From the NCBI GenBank assembly GCA_934646865.1, contig CAKUEU010000065.1, positions 1 through 10,179 on the forward strand: DNA of 10,179 nt, written 5' to 3'. Positions 1 to 10,179 of the stretch are shown here, piece by piece. The notes under the pieces were generated by a model. The model was not told where the DNA came from and did no database searches. It worked only from the letters and a program-made list of their open reading frames with translations. The stretch's first letter is position 1; each line of letters starts with the position of its first letter. The translations under genes were made by a program, and so were the position numbers. The stretch is from an uncultured Collinsella sp. (GTDB lineage: Bacteria > Actinomycetota > Coriobacteriia > Coriobacteriales > Coriobacteriaceae).

Positions 1-1944
1 ACGCCCAACCGCCCCGACTGCCTGTCCATGATCGGCATGGCCCGCGAGACCGGCGCCATCTTCGACCGCGATTTCCACGTTGAGCTGCCCGCCATCAAGG
101 CCGAGACCGGCCGTGCGACCGACGACGAGCTTTCCGTCGAGATCGCCGACGAGGGCCTGTGCGACCGCTACGTTGCCCGCATCGTGCGCAACGTGAAGGT
201 CGGCCCGTCGCCCGACTGGATGGTCAAGCGCCTCAACGCCCTGGGCGTGCGCCCGCACAACAACATCGTCGACATCACCAACTACGTGATGATGCTCACC
301 GGTCAGCCGCTGCACGCCTTTGACCTGGATACCTTTGCCGAGCGCGATGGCCGTCGCCGCGTGGTGGTCCGCGCCGCCCAGCAGGACGAGAAGTTCACGA
401 CCCTCGACGGCGAGGAGCGCGTGCTCGACGCCGGCATGGGCCTGATCACCGACGGCGAGCGTCCCGTGGCGCTGGCCGGCGTTATGGGCGGCATGGATTC
501 CGAGATCGAGGACGACACCGTCGACGTGATGGTCGAGAGCGCCTGCTTCAATGCCGGCCGCACCTCGCACACCAGCCGCGACCTGTCGCTGATCTCCGAT
601 GCCTCCATCCGCTTTGAGCGCCAGGTCGACGAGACCGGCTGCGTGGACGTCGCCAACGTCACCTGCGCCCTGATCGAGGAGATCGCCGGCGGCGAGGTCG
701 CTCCCGGCTACGTTGACGTGTTCCCCGCGCCCAAGACCATCGACAGCATTAAGCTGCGCCTGGCCCGCGTGCACGCCATCTGCGGTGCCGATATCGAGCC
801 CGACTTTATCGAGCGCTCGCTTACCCGCCTGGGCTGCACCGTCGAGCGCGACGGCGAGGACTTTATGGTCACGCCGCCGAGTTTCCGTCCCGACCTGCCG
901 CGCGAGATCGACCTCATCGAGGAGGTCCTGCGCCTGTGGGGCATGGGCCGCGTGACGGCGACCATCCCGGCTGCCAAGAACCACATCGGCGGTCTGACCC
1001 GCGAGCAGAAGCTCACCCGCAAGGTCGGTGAGATCCTGCGCGCCTGCGGCCTCAACGAGACCACGACCTTTGGTTTTGCCGCCCCGGGCGATCTGGAGAA
1101 GATCGGTATGTCCACCGAGGGCCGCGGTTGCCCCGTGGTGCTCATGAACCCGCTGGTAGCCGAGCAGACCGAGATGCGCCGCTCGCTGCTTCCGGGCCTG
1201 CTGCAGTCCGTGGCCTACAACGAGGCTCACGGCACGCCCAACGTGCACCTGTACGAGGTCGGCAGCCTGTTCCACGGTCGCGAGAACGCCAGCCTGCCCA
1301 AGGAGACCAAGTCCGTGGCGGGCGTGCTTTCGGGCCAGTGGAGTGAGCAGTCCTGGAACATGAAGTACCGCAAGCTGCGCTTCTTCTTTGGCAAGGGCAT
1401 CGTCGAGGAGCTGCTTGCCCAGCTGCGCATCGAGAAGGTCCGCTTCCGTCCCGTCGAGGGCGAGGGCTATGCCTTCCTGCAGCCGGGTCGTGCGGCCGAA
1501 GTTCTGTCCGGCGGTACCGTGCTGGGCTGGGTCGGCGAGATCCATCCCGAGGCACGCGAGGCTATGGGCATCGATGAGGTCGTCGTTGCCTTTGAGCTCG
1601 ATCTGGACAAGCTGATCAAGGGCGCCCGCAACCAGGAGAACTATCGCGAGTTCTCGCAGTACCCCGCCGTTGAGCACGACCTTGCTATCGTGGTCGACAA
1701 CTCCGTGACCTGCGAGGACCTTGAGCGTCGTATTACGAGCGCCGGCGGCAAGCTGCTCGAGGGCGTGCGCCTGTTCGACGTCTACCGCGATCCGGTTCGC
1801 ATCGGTGCGGGCAAGAAGTCCATGGCCTTTGCGCTTACGTATCGCTCCGACGACCACACGCTCACCAGCGAAGAGGTCGAGAAGGCGCACCAGAAGATCG
1901 TCACCAAGGTGTGCAAGGGCGTAAACGGCGAGGTCCGCGGCTAG
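1..1944 (+). CDS. pheT: Phenylalanyl-tRNA synthetase beta subunit (5'-truncated by window)
   Basis: This is the beta chain of the (alpha-beta)2 enzyme that charges tRNA-Phe with phenylalanine in the cytoplasm; the alpha chain (PheS) would lie to the left. The frame is open from base 1, where TPNRPDC, a conserved PheT stretch, is read ahead of the first in-window ATG at 28, so 28 is not the true start. About 647 residues are visible and roughly 150-170 N-terminal residues (tRNA-binding-like domain) are off the window. Domains in order are the B3/B4 editing domain (about bases 160-650, with the PHNNIVDITNYVM and GQPLHAFD motifs), the B5 domain (about 730-960, with SFRPDLPREIDLIEEVLR), the catalytic-like core, and the C-terminal FDX-ACB anticodon-binding domain (about 1660-1941, starting QYPAVEHDLAIVVD). 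The stop is TAG at 1942-1944. The gene is intact as far as seen, with codon use typical of a highly expressed gene. Confidence 0.97.
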   Translation, partial: TPNRPDCLSMIGMARETGAIFDRDFHVELPAIKAETGRATDDELSVEIADEGLCDRYVARIVRNVKVGPSPDWMVKRLNALGVRPHNNIVDITNYVMMLTGQPLHAFDLDTFAERDGRRRVVVRAAQQDEKFTTLDGEERVLDAGMGLITDGERPVALAGVMGGMDSEIEDDTVDVMVESACFNAGRTSHTSRDLSLISDASIRFERQVDETGCVDVANVTCALIEEIAGGEVAPGYVDVFPAPKTIDSIKLRLARVHAICGADIEPDFIERSLTRLGCTVERDGEDFMVTPPSFRPDLPREIDLIEEVLRLWGMGRVTATIPAAKNHIGGLTREQKLTRKVGEILRACGLNETTTFGFAAPGDLEKIGMSTEGRGCPVVLMNPLVAEQTEMRRSLLPGLLQSVAYNEAHGTPNVHLYEVGSLFHGRENASLPKETKSVAGVLSGQWSEQSWNMKYRKLRFFFGKGIVEELLAQLRIEKVRFRPVEGEGYAFLQPGRAAEVLSGGTVLGWVGEIHPEAREAMGIDEVVVAFELDLDKLIKGARNQENYREFSQYPAVEHDLAIVVDNSVTCEDLERRITSAGGKLLEGVRLFDVYRDPVRIGAGKKSMAFALTYRSDDHTLTSEEVEKAHQKIVTKVCKGVNGEVRG

Positions 1945-1969
1945 GGCTTGCGACTGAGGCGTGGGCCGT

Positions 1970-1999
1970 CGGGCGGCGGCATGACTGGGCCGCTGCCCG
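1970..1999 (+). other. GC-rich hairpin after pheT
   Basis: Bases 1970-1980 pair with 1989-1999 as an 11-bp stem with one G-U wobble and an 8-nt loop. It starts 26 bases after the pheT stop. No T-run follows, so it is not a classical intrinsic terminator. It may protect the mRNA 3' end or work together with the hairpin at 2030-2070. Confidence 0.5.
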
Positions 2000-2029
2000 C
2001 TGATGTCTCGCATCTATGACATATGTATT

Positions 2030-2114: not shown

Positions 2115-2159
2115 TGACAATTGATTCAACCGGCGCCGCAATCCCATGCGCCGACAACC

Positions 2160-2165
2160 GGGAGG
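2160..2165 (+). promoter_or_regulatory. Ribosome binding site deciding the nikM/cbiM start
   Basis: GGGAGG ends 4 nt before the ATG at 2170. This selects the ATG that gives N-terminal MHIPD over the in-frame upstream ATG at 2146, which would add eight residues and bury the metal-binding amino terminus. A 5-bp GCGCC/GGCGC pairing (2148-2152 with 2164-2168) partly covers the site. Confidence 0.7.
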
Positions 2166-2169
2166 CGCT

Positions 2170-3255
2170 ATGCACATTCCAGATAATTACCTGTCCCCGC
2201 AGACCGATGCCGTCATGGCGGTGGCGATGGTGCCCGTGTGGGTTCACTGCATCAAGAAGGTGCGCGCTACGCTCGATCGCGAGCACATGGCCTTTTTGGG
2301 TATTTGCGCCGCGTTCTCCTTTTTGCTCATGATGTTTAACGTGCCGCTGCCCGGCGGCACCACGGGTCACGCTGTCGGCGGCGCGCTAATCGCGCTGCTG
2401 CTGGGCCCCGAGGCTGCGGCCATTGCCGTTTCGGTCGCGCTGGCGCTGCAGGCGCTACTGTTTGGCGACGGCGGCATCCTGTCTTTTGGCGCCAACTGCT
2501 TTAACATGGCCTTTGTGCTGCCGTTTGCCGCCGCCATCGTGTTTCGTGCGCTCAACATTCGTCTGCACGACAAGAGCTGGGGCACTTCGGTCTCGGCTAT
2601 CGTGAGTGGCTGGGTTGGCCTGTGCCTGGCAGCCCTGTGCGCGGCGATCGAGTTCGGTATTCAGCCCATGCTCTTCACCAATGCCTCGGGCGCGCCGCTG
2701 TACTGCCCCTTCCCGCTGTCTATCGCTGTCCCGGCCATGATGATTCCGCACATGCTGGTCGCCGGCGTGGTCGAGGGTGTGGCGACGGCCGCCATTTACG
2801 GCTTTATCAAGAAGACGGCGCCGGGTATTATCGTTGGTCCCGAGGCCGCTGACGGCCAGCTTGCCGCCGAGGGCGCTACTGCCAAGAAGACCTCGCTGAT
2901 CCTCACGCTCATCCTGGTCGCCGTACTTGTCGTGGCCACGCCGCTGGGTCTGCTTGCCACGGGTGACGCCTGGGGCGAGTGGGACGCCGAGGGCGCCGCA
3001 ACCGCCGTTCAGGAGGCTGGCGACGACAGCTTACAGGCTTCGGTCGGCCTCGATACCCCGACCTTCGCTGACGTCCTGCCCACGGGCGATTATCTACAGG
3101 CTTATTCCGAGGAGCAGGGTCTTGGCTTTGCCGGCCAGGCTGCCATGTATATCCTTTCGGGCGTGATTGGCGTGGCGGTGCTCACCATCGCGTTCCGCCT
3201 GATCTCGCTGACGGTTAAGGAAAGCGGTGCTCATGGCAATGGCCGAGCTGCCTAG
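2170..3255 (+). CDS. nikM: ECF nickel/cobalt importer, CbiM/NikM substrate-binding component fused to NikN-like domain
   Basis: This 361-residue membrane protein is the metal-specific S-component of a group I ECF transporter and would capture Ni2+ or Co2+ for import. The mature start MHIPDNYLSP matches the family hallmark MHIPDGFLSP. Met1/His2 and His67 (in GTTGHAVGG, residues 64-71) are the known metal ligands, and all are present. The conserved QALLFGDGG...GANCFNMA block is at 94-114. After the CbiM core (to about 215) come a linker, a membrane segment (about 242-262, ending TPLGLLATGD), an acidic extracytoplasmic stretch (265-318) and a last membrane helix (about 325-348). That layout is the NikN/PDGLE-type accessory domain, so M and N are one chain, as in Nik(MN) proteins. 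It is the first gene of the operon and overlaps the next by 29 bases. The substrate call of nickel over cobalt rests on the upstream NikR-type site, not on the protein. Confidence 0.88.
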   Translation: MHIPDNYLSPQTDAVMAVAMVPVWVHCIKKVRATLDREHMAFLGICAAFSFLLMMFNVPLPGGTTGHAVGGALIALLLGPEAAAIAVSVALALQALLFGDGGILSFGANCFNMAFVLPFAAAIVFRALNIRLHDKSWGTSVSAIVSGWVGLCLAALCAAIEFGIQPMLFTNASGAPLYCPFPLSIAVPAMMIPHMLVAGVVEGVATAAIYGFIKKTAPGIIVGPEAADGQLAAEGATAKKTSLILTLILVAVLVVATPLGLLATGDAWGEWDAEGAATAVQEAGDDSLQASVGLDTPTFADVLPTGDYLQAYSEEQGLGFAGQAAMYILSGVIGVAVLTIAFRLISLTVKESGAHGNGRAA

Positions 3256-4069
3256 CTGGCTTGCGGCCGAGGAGCGATATGAGCCCACGGGGGCTCGGCA
3301 TCGCGTGATGCAAAAGAACGTCCTGCACCTGGCGAGCCTGCTTGAACGGGTTCGCCTGGGCGGCGGCGCACACGAGGGCGGGTCAGTTGTCGACCGCGCC
3401 CTTTCTTGCGTTTCGGCTCCGGTGCGCCTGGTGGGGATGTTTGCCTGCGTTCTGTGCGTGTGTCTGACGCAAAGCCCACTGTTCCTCATGTTGATGGCGG
3501 CAATCGCTCTGGTGCTCGTTGCCGTACGCCCCGTACGCGGGCTGCGGGCGACCTTTGTGCCGGCGCTTGGCGCTGCGGGGCTTGCGGTGGTTCTGGCGCT
3601 GCCGGCCTTGCTGTTGGGCGCTTCTGCCGCGAGCGCTATGCTCAAGATCGCTCTCAAGACGTTCATCAATGTGTCGCTGGTGCTGGGCGTTTCGTGGACG
3701 CTTACCTGGAGCCGCATGTCGGCAGCGCTCAAGATGTTGCACCTGCCCGACGAGGTTATCTTTACGTTTGATATGGCTCTCAAGCACATCGAGGTGCTGG
3801 GTCGCACGGCGCACGACCTGACCGAATCGGTCATGCTGCGCAGCGTCGGCCGCGCGCCTGAGGGGTTTTCGCGCACCGACTCGGTCGCGGGTATCATGGG
3901 CATGACCTTTATCAAGGCGATGGAATGCAGCCGCGCGATGGATGAGGCCATGCTATGCCGCGGCTTTGCCGGCGTGTATCCAGCGCCCACGCGCGCTGGG
4001 TTTGGCTGGCGCGACGTGGTTTATACGGCCGTTGTGGTGCTGCTGGCGGCGCTGTGCGCCGTGCTGTAA
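3227..4069 (+). CDS. nikQ: ECF transporter T-component CbiQ/NikQ
   Basis: This integral membrane scaffold couples ATP hydrolysis by the ATPase to the substrate-binding component. It has about 280 residues, with hydrophobic segments near 63-80, 84-100, 108-130 and 140-160 and a C-terminal one at 264-280. Two cytoplasmic coupling motifs are visible: the expected first (ESVMLRSVG, 200-208) and the second, better conserved AMLCRGF (241-247), equivalent to the Ala-Arg-Gly motifs of T-components that dock on the ATPases. The start is ambiguous. GTG at 3227 has AAGGA (3217-3221) at a 5-nt spacing, while ATG at 3233 or 3239 lies further away, so GTG is chosen. Either choice overlaps the end of the M-component gene, which suggests translational coupling. 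The first 60 residues are hydrophilic and variable. Confidence 0.88.
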   Translation: MLMAMAELPSWLAAEERYEPTGARHRVMQKNVLHLASLLERVRLGGGAHEGGSVVDRALSCVSAPVRLVGMFACVLCVCLTQSPLFLMLMAAIALVLVAVRPVRGLRATFVPALGAAGLAVVLALPALLLGASAASAMLKIALKTFINVSLVLGVSWTLTWSRMSAALKMLHLPDEVIFTFDMALKHIEVLGRTAHDLTESVMLRSVGRAPEGFSRTDSVAGIMGMTFIKAMECSRAMDEAMLCRGFAGVYPAPTRAGFGWRDVVYTAVVVLLAALCAVL

Positions 4070-4882
4070 ATGGCTGGCGGGCTGTTGATGCGAATAGGGA
4101 AGGGCGACGTTTTGGCTGACGATACGAATAGCGTGACGGGTGCGAGCGGTGCAGCTGGCACCAAGGTAGCCCCACTCATCGAGTTGCGCGACGTGGTGTT
4201 TTCCTATGCTGGGCATACGGTTATCGACGGCGTGTCGCTGCGGGTCGATCGCGGTGAGCTTGTTGCGCTGCTCGGTCCCAATGGCTGCGGCAAGACGACG
4301 ATCATGCGCCTTATCAACGGTCTTGAGCTCGCGGGCGCGGGCACGTACCTGTTTGATGGGCACGTGATCGATGCGGCGTTTCTGAAGGATTCTGTGGCCG
4401 CTCAGCGCTTCCACCAGCGCGTGGGCTTTGTGTTCCAAAACGCCGATGCCCAACTGTTCTGCGCCACGGTGGGCGAGGAAGTTGCCTTTGGTCCCACTCA
4501 AATGGGTCTGCCGGCAGACGAGCTCGACCGCCGCGTGCGCGATGCCATGGAGCTGTTCCAGGTTGCCGATCTGGTCGACGCCTCGCCCTATCAGCTCTCG
4601 GGCGGGCAAAAGAAGCGCGTGGCGCTGGCCGCAGTGGTGTCGATGAACCCAGATATCCTGGTGCTCGACGAGCCCACCAACGGGCTCGACGAAGATTCAT
4701 GCGACATCGTGGTCAACTTCTTGCTGGCCTATGTTGCAGCGGGCAAGACGGTCTTGATGAGCACGCACCACCAGGATTTGGTGCGACGTCTGGGTGCCCG
4801 TGCGATCTATATCGATCGATATCACCACGTGGTCGAAGCACCTGCGCTGTCGTATGGAACCGAAAGCGGTGTCGCCGAATAG
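4070..4882 (+). CDS. nikO: ECF transporter ATPase CbiO/NikO
   Basis: This cytoplasmic ABC ATPase powers metal import with the M/N and Q components. Numbered from ATG 4070, it has Walker A GPNGCGKTT (69-77), Q-loop Gln123 in FVFQNADAQLF, signature LSGGQ (176-180), Walker B ILVLDEP (196-202, with Glu201), D-loop GLDE and switch His233 in STHHQD. The 270-residue length is normal for a single-domain ECF ATPase, probably working as a homodimer. ATG 4070 abuts the TAA of the Q gene but has no clear ribosome site. ATG 4088 also lacks one. TTG 4112 lies 7 nt after a strong GGGAAGGG and would remove 14 residues ahead of the ABC domain, which begins only around residue 35. The 5' end is therefore uncertain, while the 3' end is firm. 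Confidence 0.92.
   Translation: MAGGLLMRIGKGDVLADDTNSVTGASGAAGTKVAPLIELRDVVFSYAGHTVIDGVSLRVDRGELVALLGPNGCGKTTIMRLINGLELAGAGTYLFDGHVIDAAFLKDSVAAQRFHQRVGFVFQNADAQLFCATVGEEVAFGPTQMGLPADELDRRVRDAMELFQVADLVDASPYQLSGGQKKRVALAAVVSMNPDILVLDEPTNGLDEDSCDIVVNFLLAYVAAGKTVLMSTHHQDLVRRLGARAIYIDRYHHVVEAPALSYGTESGVAE
4097..4104 (+). promoter_or_regulatory. Candidate ribosome binding site for an internal TTG start of the ATPase
   Basis: GGGAAGGG lies 7 nt upstream of an in-frame TTG at 4112. It is the only good Shine-Dalgarno-like match near the 5' end of the ATPase gene and argues that translation may begin there rather than at ATG 4070. Confidence 0.4.
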
Positions 4883-7234: not shown

Positions 7235-7271
7235 AAAAAGGGCCCGGAAGGCGAAACCTTCCGGGCCCTTT
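7235..7271 (-). terminator. Intrinsic terminator of pyk
   Basis: A perfect 15-bp stem (7237-7251 with 7257-7271) with a 5-nt loop includes GGGCCCGG/CCGGGCCC. Read on the minus strand it is followed by a run of five T (7239-7235). It begins 28 bases beyond the pyk stop codon and is a textbook Rho-independent terminator for that gene. Confidence 0.93.
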
Positions 7272-7275
7272 GCAA

Positions 7276-7291
7276 TGCAAGTCTGCTTGCA
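7276..7291 (-). other. Small hairpin between pyk stop and its terminator
   Basis: TGCAAG (7276-7281) and CTTGCA (7286-7291) form a 6-bp stem with a 4-nt loop in the pyk 3' untranslated region. It may be incidental. Confidence 0.35.
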
Positions 7292-7299
7292 AGTGCGAT

Positions 7300-8760
7300 T
7301 TAGCGCACCTGAGCGACGTAAGCGACGTTGGTCGAGGAGACCTTGTCCTCGAGCTGGACGCTCATGCGGGGATCGCCGGCGGTAGCGACGGTCAGGTCGC
7401 CGGTCTCGACGTAGCCGAGCTCCTTAGCGGTCTCGATCGCCTTGACGATCGTACCGTTGACAGTGCCCTGGGTGATCTCGGCCTGGTGCGGGATAACGCC
7501 CCAGTACATGATCATCTGCTGGACAGCCCAGTCGTGACGAGAGAACGCGCAGATCGGCATGTTGGGACGGAAGTGCGAGATCAGGCGAGCGGTACGACCG
7601 GTGGTCGTCGGCACGGTGATGCACTTGGCGCCAACGGTGGTGGCCATGTTCACAGCGGACATACCCACAACGTTGTTGACGACGCGGGTGCCGTGGGCGT
7701 CGGCCGGAACCTCGAGCGGAGCGTGAGCCGGGAGGTACTTCTCGGTCTCCATGGCGATGCTGGCCTGCATCTTGACGGCCTCGACCGGGTACTTACCGGC
7801 AGCGGACTCGCCGGACAGCATGACGGCGTCGGTGCCGTCATAAATGGCGTTAGCAACGTCGGCAACCTCGGCGCGCGTCGGGCGCGGGTTCTGCTGCATG
7901 GAGTCGAGCATCTGCGTAGCGGTGATGACGGGCTTGTAGGCCGCGTTGCACTTGGCGATGATCTCCTTCTGGATGTGCGGAACGAGCTCGGGCTTGATCT
8001 CGATACCCAGGTCGCCACGGGCGACCATGATGCCGTCGGAAGCCTCGAGGATCTCGTCGAAGTTCTCGACGCCCAGGGCGCACTCGATCTTCGGGAAGAT
8101 CGTCACGTGCTCGCCACCGTTCTCGCGGCAAAGCTCGCGGATGCCGCGGACGGACTCGCCGTCACGGATGAAGGAAGCGGCGATGTAGTCGATGTTCTCG
8201 GTCAGGCCAAAGAGGATGTCCTGACGATCGCGCTCGGTGATGGCGGGCAGCGAGATGTTGACGTTGGGCATGTTGACGCCCTTGCGCTCGCCGATCAGGC
8301 CGTCGTTCTTGACGACGCAGGTCATGTCCTGGCCGTCGACGGACTCGACCTCGAGGGCAACCAGGCCGTCGTCGATCAGGATGAGGGAGCCCTTCTCGAC
8401 CTCGGAGGGCAGAGCCAGGTAGTCGAGGGAGATGTGCTCAGAAGTGCCGTGGAAATCCTCGGACGTGGGCTGAGCGGTGACGACGATCTTGTCGCCAGTC
8501 TTGACGGCAACCTTCTTGCCGTCGACCAGAAGGCCGGTGCGGACCTCGGGACCCTTGGTGTCGAGCAGGATGCCGACGGGCATACCGAGCTCCTTGGAAA
8601 TACGACGGACGCGCTCGATGCGACCGTGATGCTCGTCGTAGGAGCCGTGCGAGAAGTTAAAACGGGCGACGTTCATGCCCGCCTTGATCATCTCGCGGAT
8701 GGTCTCGTCGCTATCGCAGGCGGGACCCATGGTGCATACAATCTTGGTGCGCTTGTACAT
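7300..8760 (-). CDS. pyk: Pyruvate kinase
   Basis: This cytoplasmic glycolytic enzyme converts phosphoenolpyruvate and ADP to pyruvate and ATP. It has 486 residues, the usual length of the form without the extra C-terminal PEP-utilising domain. It begins TKIVCTMGPACDS, with NVARFNFSHG at 30-39 (Arg33, Asn35 and Ser37, matching the substrate and K+ ligands). LLDTKGPEVRTG (65-76) has Glu72 at the position that, by alignment to the muscle enzyme Glu117, marks K+-dependent kinases. The catalytic lysine lies in FPKIE (Lys224). GDLGIEI and ITATQMLDSM follow, then the C-terminal effector domain (about 350-486). The start ATG has a strong ATGGAGG ribosome site. The gene is monocistronic here: its own promoter is in the divergent gap and a strong terminator follows. 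Confidence 0.98.
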   Translation of the reverse strand: MYKRTKIVCTMGPACDSDETIREMIKAGMNVARFNFSHGSYDEHHGRIERVRRISKELGMPVGILLDTKGPEVRTGLLVDGKKVAVKTGDKIVVTAQPTSEDFHGTSEHISLDYLALPSEVEKGSLILIDDGLVALEVESVDGQDMTCVVKNDGLIGERKGVNMPNVNISLPAITERDRQDILFGLTENIDYIAASFIRDGESVRGIRELCRENGGEHVTIFPKIECALGVENFDEILEASDGIMVARGDLGIEIKPELVPHIQKEIIAKCNAAYKPVITATQMLDSMQQNPRPTRAEVADVANAIYDGTDAVMLSGESAAGKYPVEAVKMQASIAMETEKYLPAHAPLEVPADAHGTRVVNNVVGMSAVNMATTVGAKCITVPTTTGRTARLISHFRPNMPICAFSRHDWAVQQMIMYWGVIPHQAEITQGTVNGTIVKAIETAKELGYVETGDLTVATAGDPRMSVQLEDKVSSTNVAYVAQVR

Positions 8761-8765
8761 TCAGA

Positions 8766-8772
8766 CCTCCAT
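8766..8772 (-). promoter_or_regulatory. pyk ribosome binding site
   Basis: On the minus strand ATGGAGG ends 5 nt before the ATG at 8760. This fixes the start and excludes longer readings. Confidence 0.85.
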
Positions 8773-8823
8773 CTGACATCGTCTTGCGCTGATAGATAAA
8801 CCATAAGAAATAAAACCGAGAAG

Positions 8824-8829
8824 ATTATA
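8824..8829 (-). promoter_or_regulatory. Predicted pyk promoter -10
   Basis: On the minus strand a perfect TATAAT sits 63 bases upstream of the pyk start, predicting transcription from about 8817. No good -35 hexamer is visible at 16-18 bp, so an activator or an unusual -35 may be involved. Confidence 0.55.
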
Positions 8830-8910
8830 ACGAATTGCCGACCGAATACCCCTAAAAATCGACCGTACGCCGATTAAGAAGTTCATTTTTTACTCAAAAA
8901 AGGCTAAAGG

Positions 8911-8995
8911 AAAAACTTTTACCAAGCGGTCTTACCGCTGCTATCTGGGAGATATTTCAGTTAGGCGATGAGCCGTAGAAAAAACGTTTTACCAA
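8911..8995. repeat. Two copies of an AAAAAC(G)TTTTACCAA motif in the divergent gap
   Basis: The motif occurs at 8911-8925 (without the G) and at 8980-8995 (with the G), in the same orientation and about 70 bp apart. The second copy contains the perfect palindrome AAAACGTTTT (8981-8990), a CG-centred core of the kind bound by LacI-family regulators. A 6-bp hairpin AGCGGT/ACCGCT (8925-8939) overlaps the end of the first copy. These are candidate operators for pyk and/or the divergent ATPase gene; no regulator gene is present here. Confidence 0.4.
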
Positions 8996-9054
8996 CATTG
9001 AGCATCACACCGTCTGCACCGTTGTAACCGGACCGTGTTTCCAGATGGAATGTT

Positions 9055-9084
9055 TTGGCTAGACGCGCCGCTTTGGGGTACCAT
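9055..9084 (+). promoter_or_regulatory. Predicted promoter of the P-type ATPase gene
   Basis: TTGGCT (9055-9060) and TACCAT (9079-9084) are separated by 18 bp, each matching the sigma-70 consensus at four of six positions. The predicted start near 9091 is just before the structured leader begins at 9099, which supports the placement. Confidence 0.5.
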
Positions 9085-9090
9085 AGCTCC

Positions 9091-9202
9091 ACTATCAACT
9101 GCCGCTCAGCACGGCAGCCTTGATGAGCCCTTGCCCTTCTCCTGGGAATTATGATCGGGCATCAATCTGCTGAGTGGCCCGAATCCCAGGAGGGGACTCT
9201 AT
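9091..9202 (+). promoter_or_regulatory. Structured 5' leader of the P-type ATPase; candidate riboswitch-like element
   Basis: The roughly 110-nt leader contains several pairings. First, 9101-9111 pairs with 9168-9178 as an 11-bp long-range helix with one G-U. Second, 9120-9125 and 9128-9130 pair with 9160-9165 and 9157-9159, a 9-bp hairpin with a 2-nt bulge. Third, CTCCTGGGA (9139-9147) pairs perfectly with TCCCAGGAG (9184-9192), covering the Shine-Dalgarno AGGAGG (9188-9193). A local hairpin CTGCCG/CGGCAG (9099-9104 with 9112-9117) competes with the first helix. The third pairing joins the loop of the second helix to the ribosome site, so it would be a pseudoknot or an alternative fold. I do not recognise a known class: M-box, yybP-ykoY manganese and NiCo consensus features were not found by eye. 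A ligand, if any, is unknown. Confidence 0.55.
9123..9173 (+). CDS. Possible 16-residue upstream ORF in the ATPase leader
   Basis: ATG at 9123 opens MSPCPSPGNYDRASIC and stops at TGA 9171-9173, entirely inside the structured leader. Its codons cover the anti-Shine-Dalgarno strand, so translation would disrupt that pairing. No convincing ribosome site precedes it, and it may well be chance. Confidence 0.15.
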   Translation: MSPCPSPGNYDRASIC

Positions 9203-10179
9203 ATGCAAAAGGAATACCTGTCCGCCGCGGCGGAGGTGCTCAGCGACCAGGGTGTCGATGAGCACCTCGGCCTGAGCAACGACGAGGCGTCGTCGCGTCT
9301 CGCCAAGACAGGCCCTAACAAGCTCGAGGAAGCCGAGAAGACGCCGCTATGGAAGCGCTTCTTTGAGCAGATGGCCGACCCCATGGTCATCATGCTGATC
9401 GTGGCTGCCGTCATCAGTGCGCTTACGGGCATGGTCAAGGGCGAGCCCGACTTTGCCGATGTCGCCATCATCATGTTCGTCGTTATCGTCAACTCGGTGC
9501 TGGGCGTGGTCCAGGAGGCCAAGAGCGAGGAGGCCCTCGAGGCCCTGCAGGAGATGAGCGCGGCGCAGTCCAAGGTTTTGCGCGACGGCAAGCTCGTGCA
9601 CCTGCCGAGTGCCGAGCTCGTGCCCGGCGACGTGATCATGCTCGAGGCGGGCGACTCCGTCCCGGCAGACTGCCGCGTGCTCGAGAGCGCCACGATGAAG
9701 ATCGAGGAAGCCGCCCTGACCGGCGAGTCCGTGCCCGTAGAGAAGCACGCCAACGTGATTGAGCTCGCCGCGGGCACCGACGACGTGCCGCTCGGCGACC
9801 GCAAGAACATGTGCTATATGGGCTCCACCGTGGTGTACGGCCGCGGCCGCGCCGTCGTGGTCGGCACCGGCATGAACACCGAGATGGGCAAGATCGCCGG
9901 CGCCCTGGCCGAGGCCAAGGAAGAACTCACGCCGCTGCAGGTGAAGCTCGCCGAGCTCAGCCGCATCCTTACCATCATGGTGATTGTCATCTGCGTCGTC
10001 ATCTTTGGCGTTGACATCCTGCGTCACGGCGTGGGCAATGTCCTCACCGACCCGACCGCCCTGCTCGACACCTTTATGGTCGCCGTCTCGCTCGCCGTCG
10101 CCGCCATCCCCGAGGGCCTGGTCGCCGTCGTGACCATCGTGCTTTCGCTCGGCGTGACCAAGATGGCCAAGCGCCAGGC
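9203..10179 (+). CDS. P-type Ca2+-type cation-translocating ATPase (3'-truncated by window)
   Basis: This is the N-terminal 325 residues of a P-type (P2, calcium-transporter-like) ATPase that would pump cations out of the cytoplasm using ATP. It shows the N-terminal cation-ATPase region (GLSNDEASSRLAKTGPNKL, 22-40), membrane helices M1/M2 (about 60-105), the actuator domain with TGES (173-176), M3 (about 258-277) and M4 with the metal-binding AAIPEGL motif (Pro303, Glu304). The second Pro of the frequent PEGLP is Val here, a variant I recall in bacterial homologues. The DKTGT phosphorylation site and the C-terminal half are beyond the window. ATG 9203 has AGGAGG at a 9-nt spacing (9188-9193), but that site is inside the leader pairing described above. 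Ca2+ is the usual substrate of this subgroup; Mn2+ or others cannot be excluded. Confidence 0.93.
   Translation, partial: MQKEYLSAAAEVLSDQGVDEHLGLSNDEASSRLAKTGPNKLEEAEKTPLWKRFFEQMADPMVIMLIVAAVISALTGMVKGEPDFADVAIIMFVVIVNSVLGVVQEAKSEEALEALQEMSAAQSKVLRDGKLVHLPSAELVPGDVIMLEAGDSVPADCRVLESATMKIEEAALTGESVPVEKHANVIELAAGTDDVPLGDRKNMCYMGSTVVYGRGRAVVVGTGMNTEMGKIAGALAEAKEELTPLQVKLAELSRILTIMVIVICVVIFGVDILRHGVGNVLTDPTALLDTFMVAVSLAVAAIPEGLVAVVTIVLSLGVTKMAKRQ

Follow-up and report, generated by a model that had tools for sequence, protein, structure and literature searches.

A conserved structured leader RNA of predicted SERCA-type Ca2+ pump genes in Coriobacteriaceae and Atopobiaceae: a candidate translational ON switch

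The leader of a P-type ATPase gene, at about 9091-9202 of the window (the whole 10,179-nucleotide stretch of Collinsella DNA that was analysed), is a real and conserved structured RNA, and apparently an undescribed one. It is compact (about 78 nt) and consists, from the outside inwards, of an 11-bp helix, P1, a second helix, P2, an internal loop that is asymmetric, UUG//AAUUANNAUC, and, at the tip, the short helix P3. Conservation is highest in GCCCUUGCCC-loop-GGGAAUUAUGAUCGGGC at 9127-9160, a part that had been missed in an earlier reading of this DNA from its letters (the sequence-only reading). That the leader works in cis as a functional structured RNA is practically beyond doubt. The fuller proposal, for which we put the chances at about even, is that it represents a new class of cis-acting leader RNA, a translational ON switch of a SERCA-type Ca2+ efflux pump, with Ca2+ as the most likely ligand.

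Two collections of leaders were used. The protein-anchored set covers 58 relatives, with 43 places where an ortholog was found at E 1e-90 or better, and its alignment, A1, has 28 distinct rows and 23 invariant columns. The other, 109 unique leaders, was chosen by a pattern in which much of the core is already specified, and for core conservation only the protein-anchored set, with its 43 places and 28 distinct rows, was therefore used; the tests of P1, the P2 flanks and the Shine-Dalgarno sequence (SD) on the 109 leaders use positions outside the pattern. The pattern search of genome contigs is a sample and not a census, with at least 120 stretches among the matches listed, and six non-pump matches from other phyla (L103, L111, L139, L145, L147 and L150) were dropped before the counts on the 109 leaders. 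The features of the window's leader are as follows.

9079..9084, + strand: -10-like box TACCAT, read from the sequence, which would put the transcription start near 9091
9101..9111, + strand: 5' strand of P1, the outer long-range helix, supported by covariation
9112..9119, + strand: conserved junction CGGCAGCC between P1 and P2, facing UC at 9166-9167; YGGCARYC in 57 of the 109 leaders
9120..9130, + strand: 5' strand of P2, made of UUGAU (9120-9124), a two-base purine bulge GA (9125-9126) and GCCC (9127-9130)
9131..9133, + strand: 5' side of the internal loop, UUG, the same in all 28 distinct rows of A1
9134..9136, + strand: 5' strand of P3, CCC, which never varies
9136..9147, + strand: anti-SD segment (P3 loop and 3' strand), able to pair with 9184-9195
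9144..9146, + strand: 3' strand of P3, GGG, conserved
9147..9156, + strand: 3' side of the internal loop, AAUUAUGAUC, a putative ligand site by its conservation in A1
9157..9165, + strand: 3' strand of P2, made of GGGC (9157-9160) and AUCAA (9161-9165)
9168..9178, + strand: 3' strand of P1, supported by covariation
9184..9195, + strand: SD region UCCCAGGAGGGG, which pairs with 9136-9147 and is predicted to open when P2/P3 is forced
9203..10177, + strand: P-type ATPase, a predicted SERCA-type Ca2+ pump by its ligand residues; 325 aa of about 893 lie within the window

Structure and compensatory base change

The gene 5' of the ATPase encodes pyruvate kinase and lies on the opposite strand, and the ATPase, which begins at 9203 and continues past the window end, must therefore have its own promoter and leader. 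The sequence-only reading had placed the transcription start just before the first helix, and the -10-like box at 9079-9084 agrees with this. Similar boxes are found in similar places in relatives, and directly before P2 in the minimal forms described below; lying just 5' of the element, they would argue against a start downstream of 9120. A generic scan of 8700-9400 for sigma-70 promoters and terminators gave no promoter-like and no terminator-like site.

The predicted fold has an energy of -49.3 kcal/mol (z -2.71), and none of 200 shuffles was as stable. Orthologous leaders conserve, with compensatory changes, two of the three helices drawn in the sequence-only reading. One of these is the 11-bp long-range helix, P1 (9101-9111/9168-9178): when 208 column pairs were ranked by APC-corrected mutual information in the 57 (of 109) leaders that have the standard junction, nine P1 pairs took ranks 1-4, 6, 8, 9, 11 and 14. 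The long-range partners score 19.9 with their own leader and 15.7 (sd 0.25) when swapped. Not every leader has P1: an unbroken long-range helix reaching 9 bp occurs in 49/109 (shuffled 10.4, sd 3.1). Within P2, pairs 9124-9161 and 9122-9163 rank first and second of 196 column pairs around the core in the 109 unique leaders, and at 9124-9161 there are 71 UA, 28 CG, 2 AU and 8 unpaired cases.

The same helices emerge from A2, an alignment of 53 leaders chosen for standard junction spacing, in which 92.8% of cells pair and two-sided changes occur in 10 of the 11 P1 pairs. It holds 111 two-sided compensatory cells, as against 42.7 (sd 6.2) in shuffled controls, none of 500 being as high, and 7-23 in slid controls; the covariation score is 0.324, as against 0.035-0.079 when slid. 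(Shuffled controls ignore relatedness, whereas slid controls retain it.) A count of pairs with at least one two-sided change is unremarkable (12, as against 10.3 shuffled, with 59/500 shuffles as high), as were the counts in another covariation test, where 70/500 shuffles matched the number of pairs with a two-sided change and 161/500 the pair types. Apart from minor differences, RNAalifold on A2 recovers the core of P1, P2 and P3. P3 itself is invariant and therefore gives no covariation support. A structured 5'-leader domain with compensatory changes, as looked for in a riboswitch, is thus present.

The conservation of the internal loop concerns bases that are unpaired. On the 3' side, with the consensus AAUUANNAUC, the second A is kept in at least 90% of the rows of A1 and the other eight specified bases are invariant. 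Conserved across 28 distinct protein-anchored rows, UUG//AAUUANNAUC forms a putative ligand pocket.

Why could this RNA not simply be a short coding leader? A 16-codon frame runs open from an ATG at 9123 to 9173, as read by eye in the window, but that reading is barely credible and was rejected on core lengths and loss of the ATG: GACGAG, GAAGGG or GACAAG stands in place of the ATG, the frame would not survive core stretches of 51, 52, 53, 54, 55 and 66 bases, and the changes preserve pairs.

Pairing with the Shine-Dalgarno region

The sequence-only reading had also drawn a 9-bp pairing over the SD. This lies within a longer one of 12 bp, with wobbles, between 9136-9147 and 9184-9195, and 90/109 leaders can form a helix of 8 bp or more from the apical (P3) region to the SD, where shuffling of the 3' strand leaves 23.2 (sd 3.8); the other 19 cannot. 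Partners from the same leader score 23.7, swapped partners 22.6 (sd 0.2) and shuffled ones 16.1. The small excess of own over swapped is expected, because one side is the near-constant SD. Where the SD varies, a matching loop can be found: AGAGGGG with CCCCUUCU (L038, L183), AGGGGUCG with CGACCCCU (L056) and UCCCCGGGAG with CUCCCGGGGA (L064).

The match to the SD usually spans the CCC 5' of the SD and runs into the GGG of P3, so that the SD helix and P3 are mutually exclusive. The minimum-energy fold of the window contains the SD helix and not P3. When five P2/P3 pairs are forced, the mean probability that the SD is unpaired goes from 0.16 to 0.54, with a rise in 99/109 leaders. In a model that has neither ligand nor tertiary contacts, the price of forcing is 5.6 (sd 3.2) kcal/mol. 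In 13/109 leaders the SD is already open unforced, in 10/109 there is no gain, and the probability exceeds 0.5 upon forcing in only 60/109. A pairing that covers the SD and excludes part of the aptamer is thus found in 90/109 leaders by the helix and in 99/109 by forcing, and not in the rest. As there is no terminator-like site, control would be of translation rather than of termination.

The sequence-only reading had proposed competing folds, one of them covering the SD. That part stands, but the competitors are P3 (9134-9136/9144-9146) and the helix between anti-SD and SD, not a 5' hairpin and the long-range helix. The local 6-bp hairpin (9099-9117) that had been given the competing role is possible in a 5-bp version in 22/57 leaders (shuffled 11.9, sd 3.3), and it was rejected as a general switch partner. 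The reading of the leader as resembling a translational riboswitch is supported overall, with an altered anatomy and with cation sensing kept as a conjecture.

Control of the SD by strand exchange is, in our judgement, likely. At rest, the SD would be paired with the P3 loop and 3' strand, as in the predicted minimum-energy fold, and translation would be off. Binding of a ligand to UUG//AAUUANNAUC, the conserved loop that separates P2 from P3, would stabilise the P1-P2-P3 fold, P3 would retain its 3' strand, and the SD would be released, turning translation on. The design is a neat one, the SD invading the apical helix of the aptamer itself.

Some Coriobacteriaceae have minimal forms of the leader (e.g., L199-L201, L204-L208 and L211), in which P1 and the junction are missing and a -10-like box stands shortly before P2. 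Their P3 is sometimes just CC/GG with the loop UUCCU, and UUCCUGG/CCAGGAGGG, or a wobble version of it, is kept in most of those tested. These forms imply that the essential unit consists of P2, P3 and the loop, usually with the anti-SD. Other leaders have diverged. In L210 (genome G256), which fails the pattern and is outside the 109 leaders, the core is degenerate (CCCUCGCC, ACACGUACGUGGG) and SD complementarity is retained; perhaps this is a switch whose ligand has been lost or changed. In L026/L045 (genome G022) a long GC-rich hairpin takes the place of P3 and the anti-SD is missing, so that the proposed pairing cannot switch that leader.

Association with one family of pumps

The core lies upstream of the pump in 43/43 protein-anchored orthologs. 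Among the pattern matches listed, and with the window included, 115 of the 124 frames 3' of a match have a pump match at E 1e-15 or better. Six of the nine others are in other phyla, two (L099 and L172) are cut by the locus end at 24 and 40 residues and match weakly, and one is a second copy in L182, which has no pump match with the frame chosen. In the class, the pump was detected in 170/396 genomes and the element in 160 of these 170, 159 by an R1 match (E 1.6e-5 or better) and L230 by eye. It is present in 32 genera of two families, Coriobacteriaceae and Atopobiaceae. Identity among 15 close strains is 99.5% in the element, compared with 89.7% in the stretch 5' of it and 87.0% at third codon positions.

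Ten pump genomes have no visible core: G238, G271, G292, G372, G392 and five of genus g36 (L227-L229, L234 and L235; genomes G139, G306, G353, G222 and G144). In the g36 lineage the pump is kept and the core has apparently been lost. Conversely, only three of the 226 class genomes in which no pump was detected have R1 below E 1e-4. G096 has true elements, one of them near a contig end, where its pump is perhaps split; G220 and G185 have no core. In the 16 class genomes with R1 at E 0.1 or better and no detected pump, strong matches were seen only in G096. The weaker R1 matches inspected lead nowhere: L209 and L212-L217 have no core and are not upstream of a pump, the core is absent from all 11 examined (L249-L259) of the weak second matches (E 8e-4 or worse; 16 loci in 14 genomes), three weak matches in the phylum outside the class (L224-L226) have no core, and the viral contigs searched gave no match.

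Some Collinsella have tandem paralogs of the pump, each with its own diverged copy of the leader. In Collinsella tanakaei-like genomes (G009, G014, G017, G018, G023 and G035) the pump is duplicated nearby (L016/L023-type; L031/L032/L037/L039-L041) with leaders of clearly different subtypes, the P2 of one subtype being without the usual pairs. The two subtypes may respond differently.

What does the pump transport? With the 893-aa ortholog in L094 as the query, the closest solved structure is the Listeria Ca2+-ATPase lmo0841 (LMCA1; E 2e-203), followed by SPCA1 and SERCA. Alignment of M5, M6 and M8 to SERCA1, with the M4 glutamate placed via the Listeria pump, sets Glu, Asn, Glu, Asn, Thr, Asp and Glu of the pump against SERCA E309, N768, E771, N796, T799, D800 and E908, which we take to be the Ca2+-ligand residues of SERCA sites I and II. 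All seven are identical in 67/67 full-length orthologs (at least 880 aa). The Listeria pump, on the other hand, differs at three of them, having Ala, Asn and Arg at the positions of E771, T799 and E908. The best NCBIfam matches are TIGR01522 (639.1 bits; cut-off 798.3) and TIGR01116 (614.1; cut-off 703.4), so the curated equivalog cut-offs for SERCA-type/PMR1-type Ca2+-ATPases are not reached by this pump.

Elsewhere in the window there are cobalt/nickel-type ECF transporter genes (CbiM, CbiQ-like and CbiO-like) at 2146-4882, with no Rfam riboswitch match in the window. There are also two long open frames, one of 671 aa at 1-2013 (- strand), antisense to a 647-aa frame at 1-1944, and one of 509 aa at 7270-8799 (+ strand), antisense to pyruvate kinase; these antisense frames are probably an effect of codon bias.

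The ligand and the known leader families

We lean towards the leader being a small-ligand riboswitch. If so, the ligand would most likely be the pumped ion, and the seven SERCA-type residues favour Ca2+. That the RNA measures cytosolic Ca2+ and turns on translation of the SERCA-type pump, as a Ca2+ riboswitch, is a tentative reading, to which we give somewhat less than even weight.

The same RNA and switch could instead respond to another ion or metabolite (Mn2+, Mg2+ or some other ion-stress signal), a less likely but serious alternative. Riboswitches are known to control P-type ATPases and cation transporters, and the substrates of pumps are often misjudged from sequence, according to PMC7266159. 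Since the yybP-ykoY cut-off was reached in 0/58 relatives, Mn2+ stays possible, and a different Mn2+ sensor is conceivable. Against this alternative stand the seven Ca2+ ligands themselves, present in all 67 orthologs in a form from which the Listeria Ca2+-ATPase departs.

Rather unlikely is that the conserved loop is the site for a translational repressor or activator protein, the RNA itself sensing nothing. Restriction to one family of genes is as compatible with a dedicated RNA-binding protein as with a riboswitch, and a protein operator would also look like this, with its internal loop fixed. However, the anti-SD is built into the conserved fold, which, as modelled, could switch without a protein partner. 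Control without any ligand, by an RNA thermometer or a simple translation attenuator, is very unlikely: SD-sequestering helices would suffice for it, but the conserved unpaired bases of the internal loop would be left unexplained.

How bacteria sense cytosolic Ca2+ and set the levels of their Ca2+ pumps is poorly understood. No report of a Ca2+-riboswitch class was found in the openly licensed literature, and a Ca2+ riboswitch would therefore be, as far as found there, the first of its class. In a review by riboswitch specialists, K+, Ca2+ and Zn2+ are named as strong candidate ligands for undiscovered riboswitch classes (PMC10043782). The RNA is compact, at about 78 nt, and has a clear proposed expression platform, which makes the question of the ligand directly testable. 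Even with a ligand other than Ca2+, this is an RNA family without an Rfam 15 match that spans 32 genera and two families.

How does the leader compare with known families? The sequence-only reading saw none of the known consensus sequences, and Rfam 15 bears this out, with no family at gathering score in the window or in 15 relatives (M-box, NiCo and Collinsella-1, RF01700, included). In permissive scans the only matches at the element were to small RNAs of eukaryotes or archaea, at the level of chance, and one scan gave nothing there; a known Rfam family was rejected on these grounds. No description of the leader was found in the openly licensed literature, supplements excluded. The HMP2 candidate RNAs (PMC8040213) are similar in being computational leader candidates from gut bacteria, Collinsella included, but the Collinsella example seen in the main text precedes ribosomal protein L7/L12; that catalogue, compared here by its main text, may list the leader. 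The Collinsella-1 RNA (RF01700), a structured motif that PMC2864571 describes in Actinobacteria living in the human gut, is likewise comparable, but the leader gives no match to it in the Rfam scans. The Na+ riboswitch (DUF1646 motif) is an ion-sensing leader of ion-handling genes (PMC9337991), but another ion is reported for it and there is no match in the Rfam scans, assuming that the family is in the library. M-box/ykoK (Mg2+-I) resembles the leader as a divalent-ion sensor 5' of transport genes (PMC7266159). Nevertheless, neither M-box/ykoK nor NiCo matches the leader in the Rfam scans. NiCo riboswitches, too, are divalent-ion sensors before transport genes. The yybP-ykoY (Mn2+) riboswitch, RF00080, matched nothing in the window, at its gathering threshold or under permissive ones. 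It is nonetheless like the leader in being a leader RNA of cation transporter genes, and in the known cases it is an ON switch.
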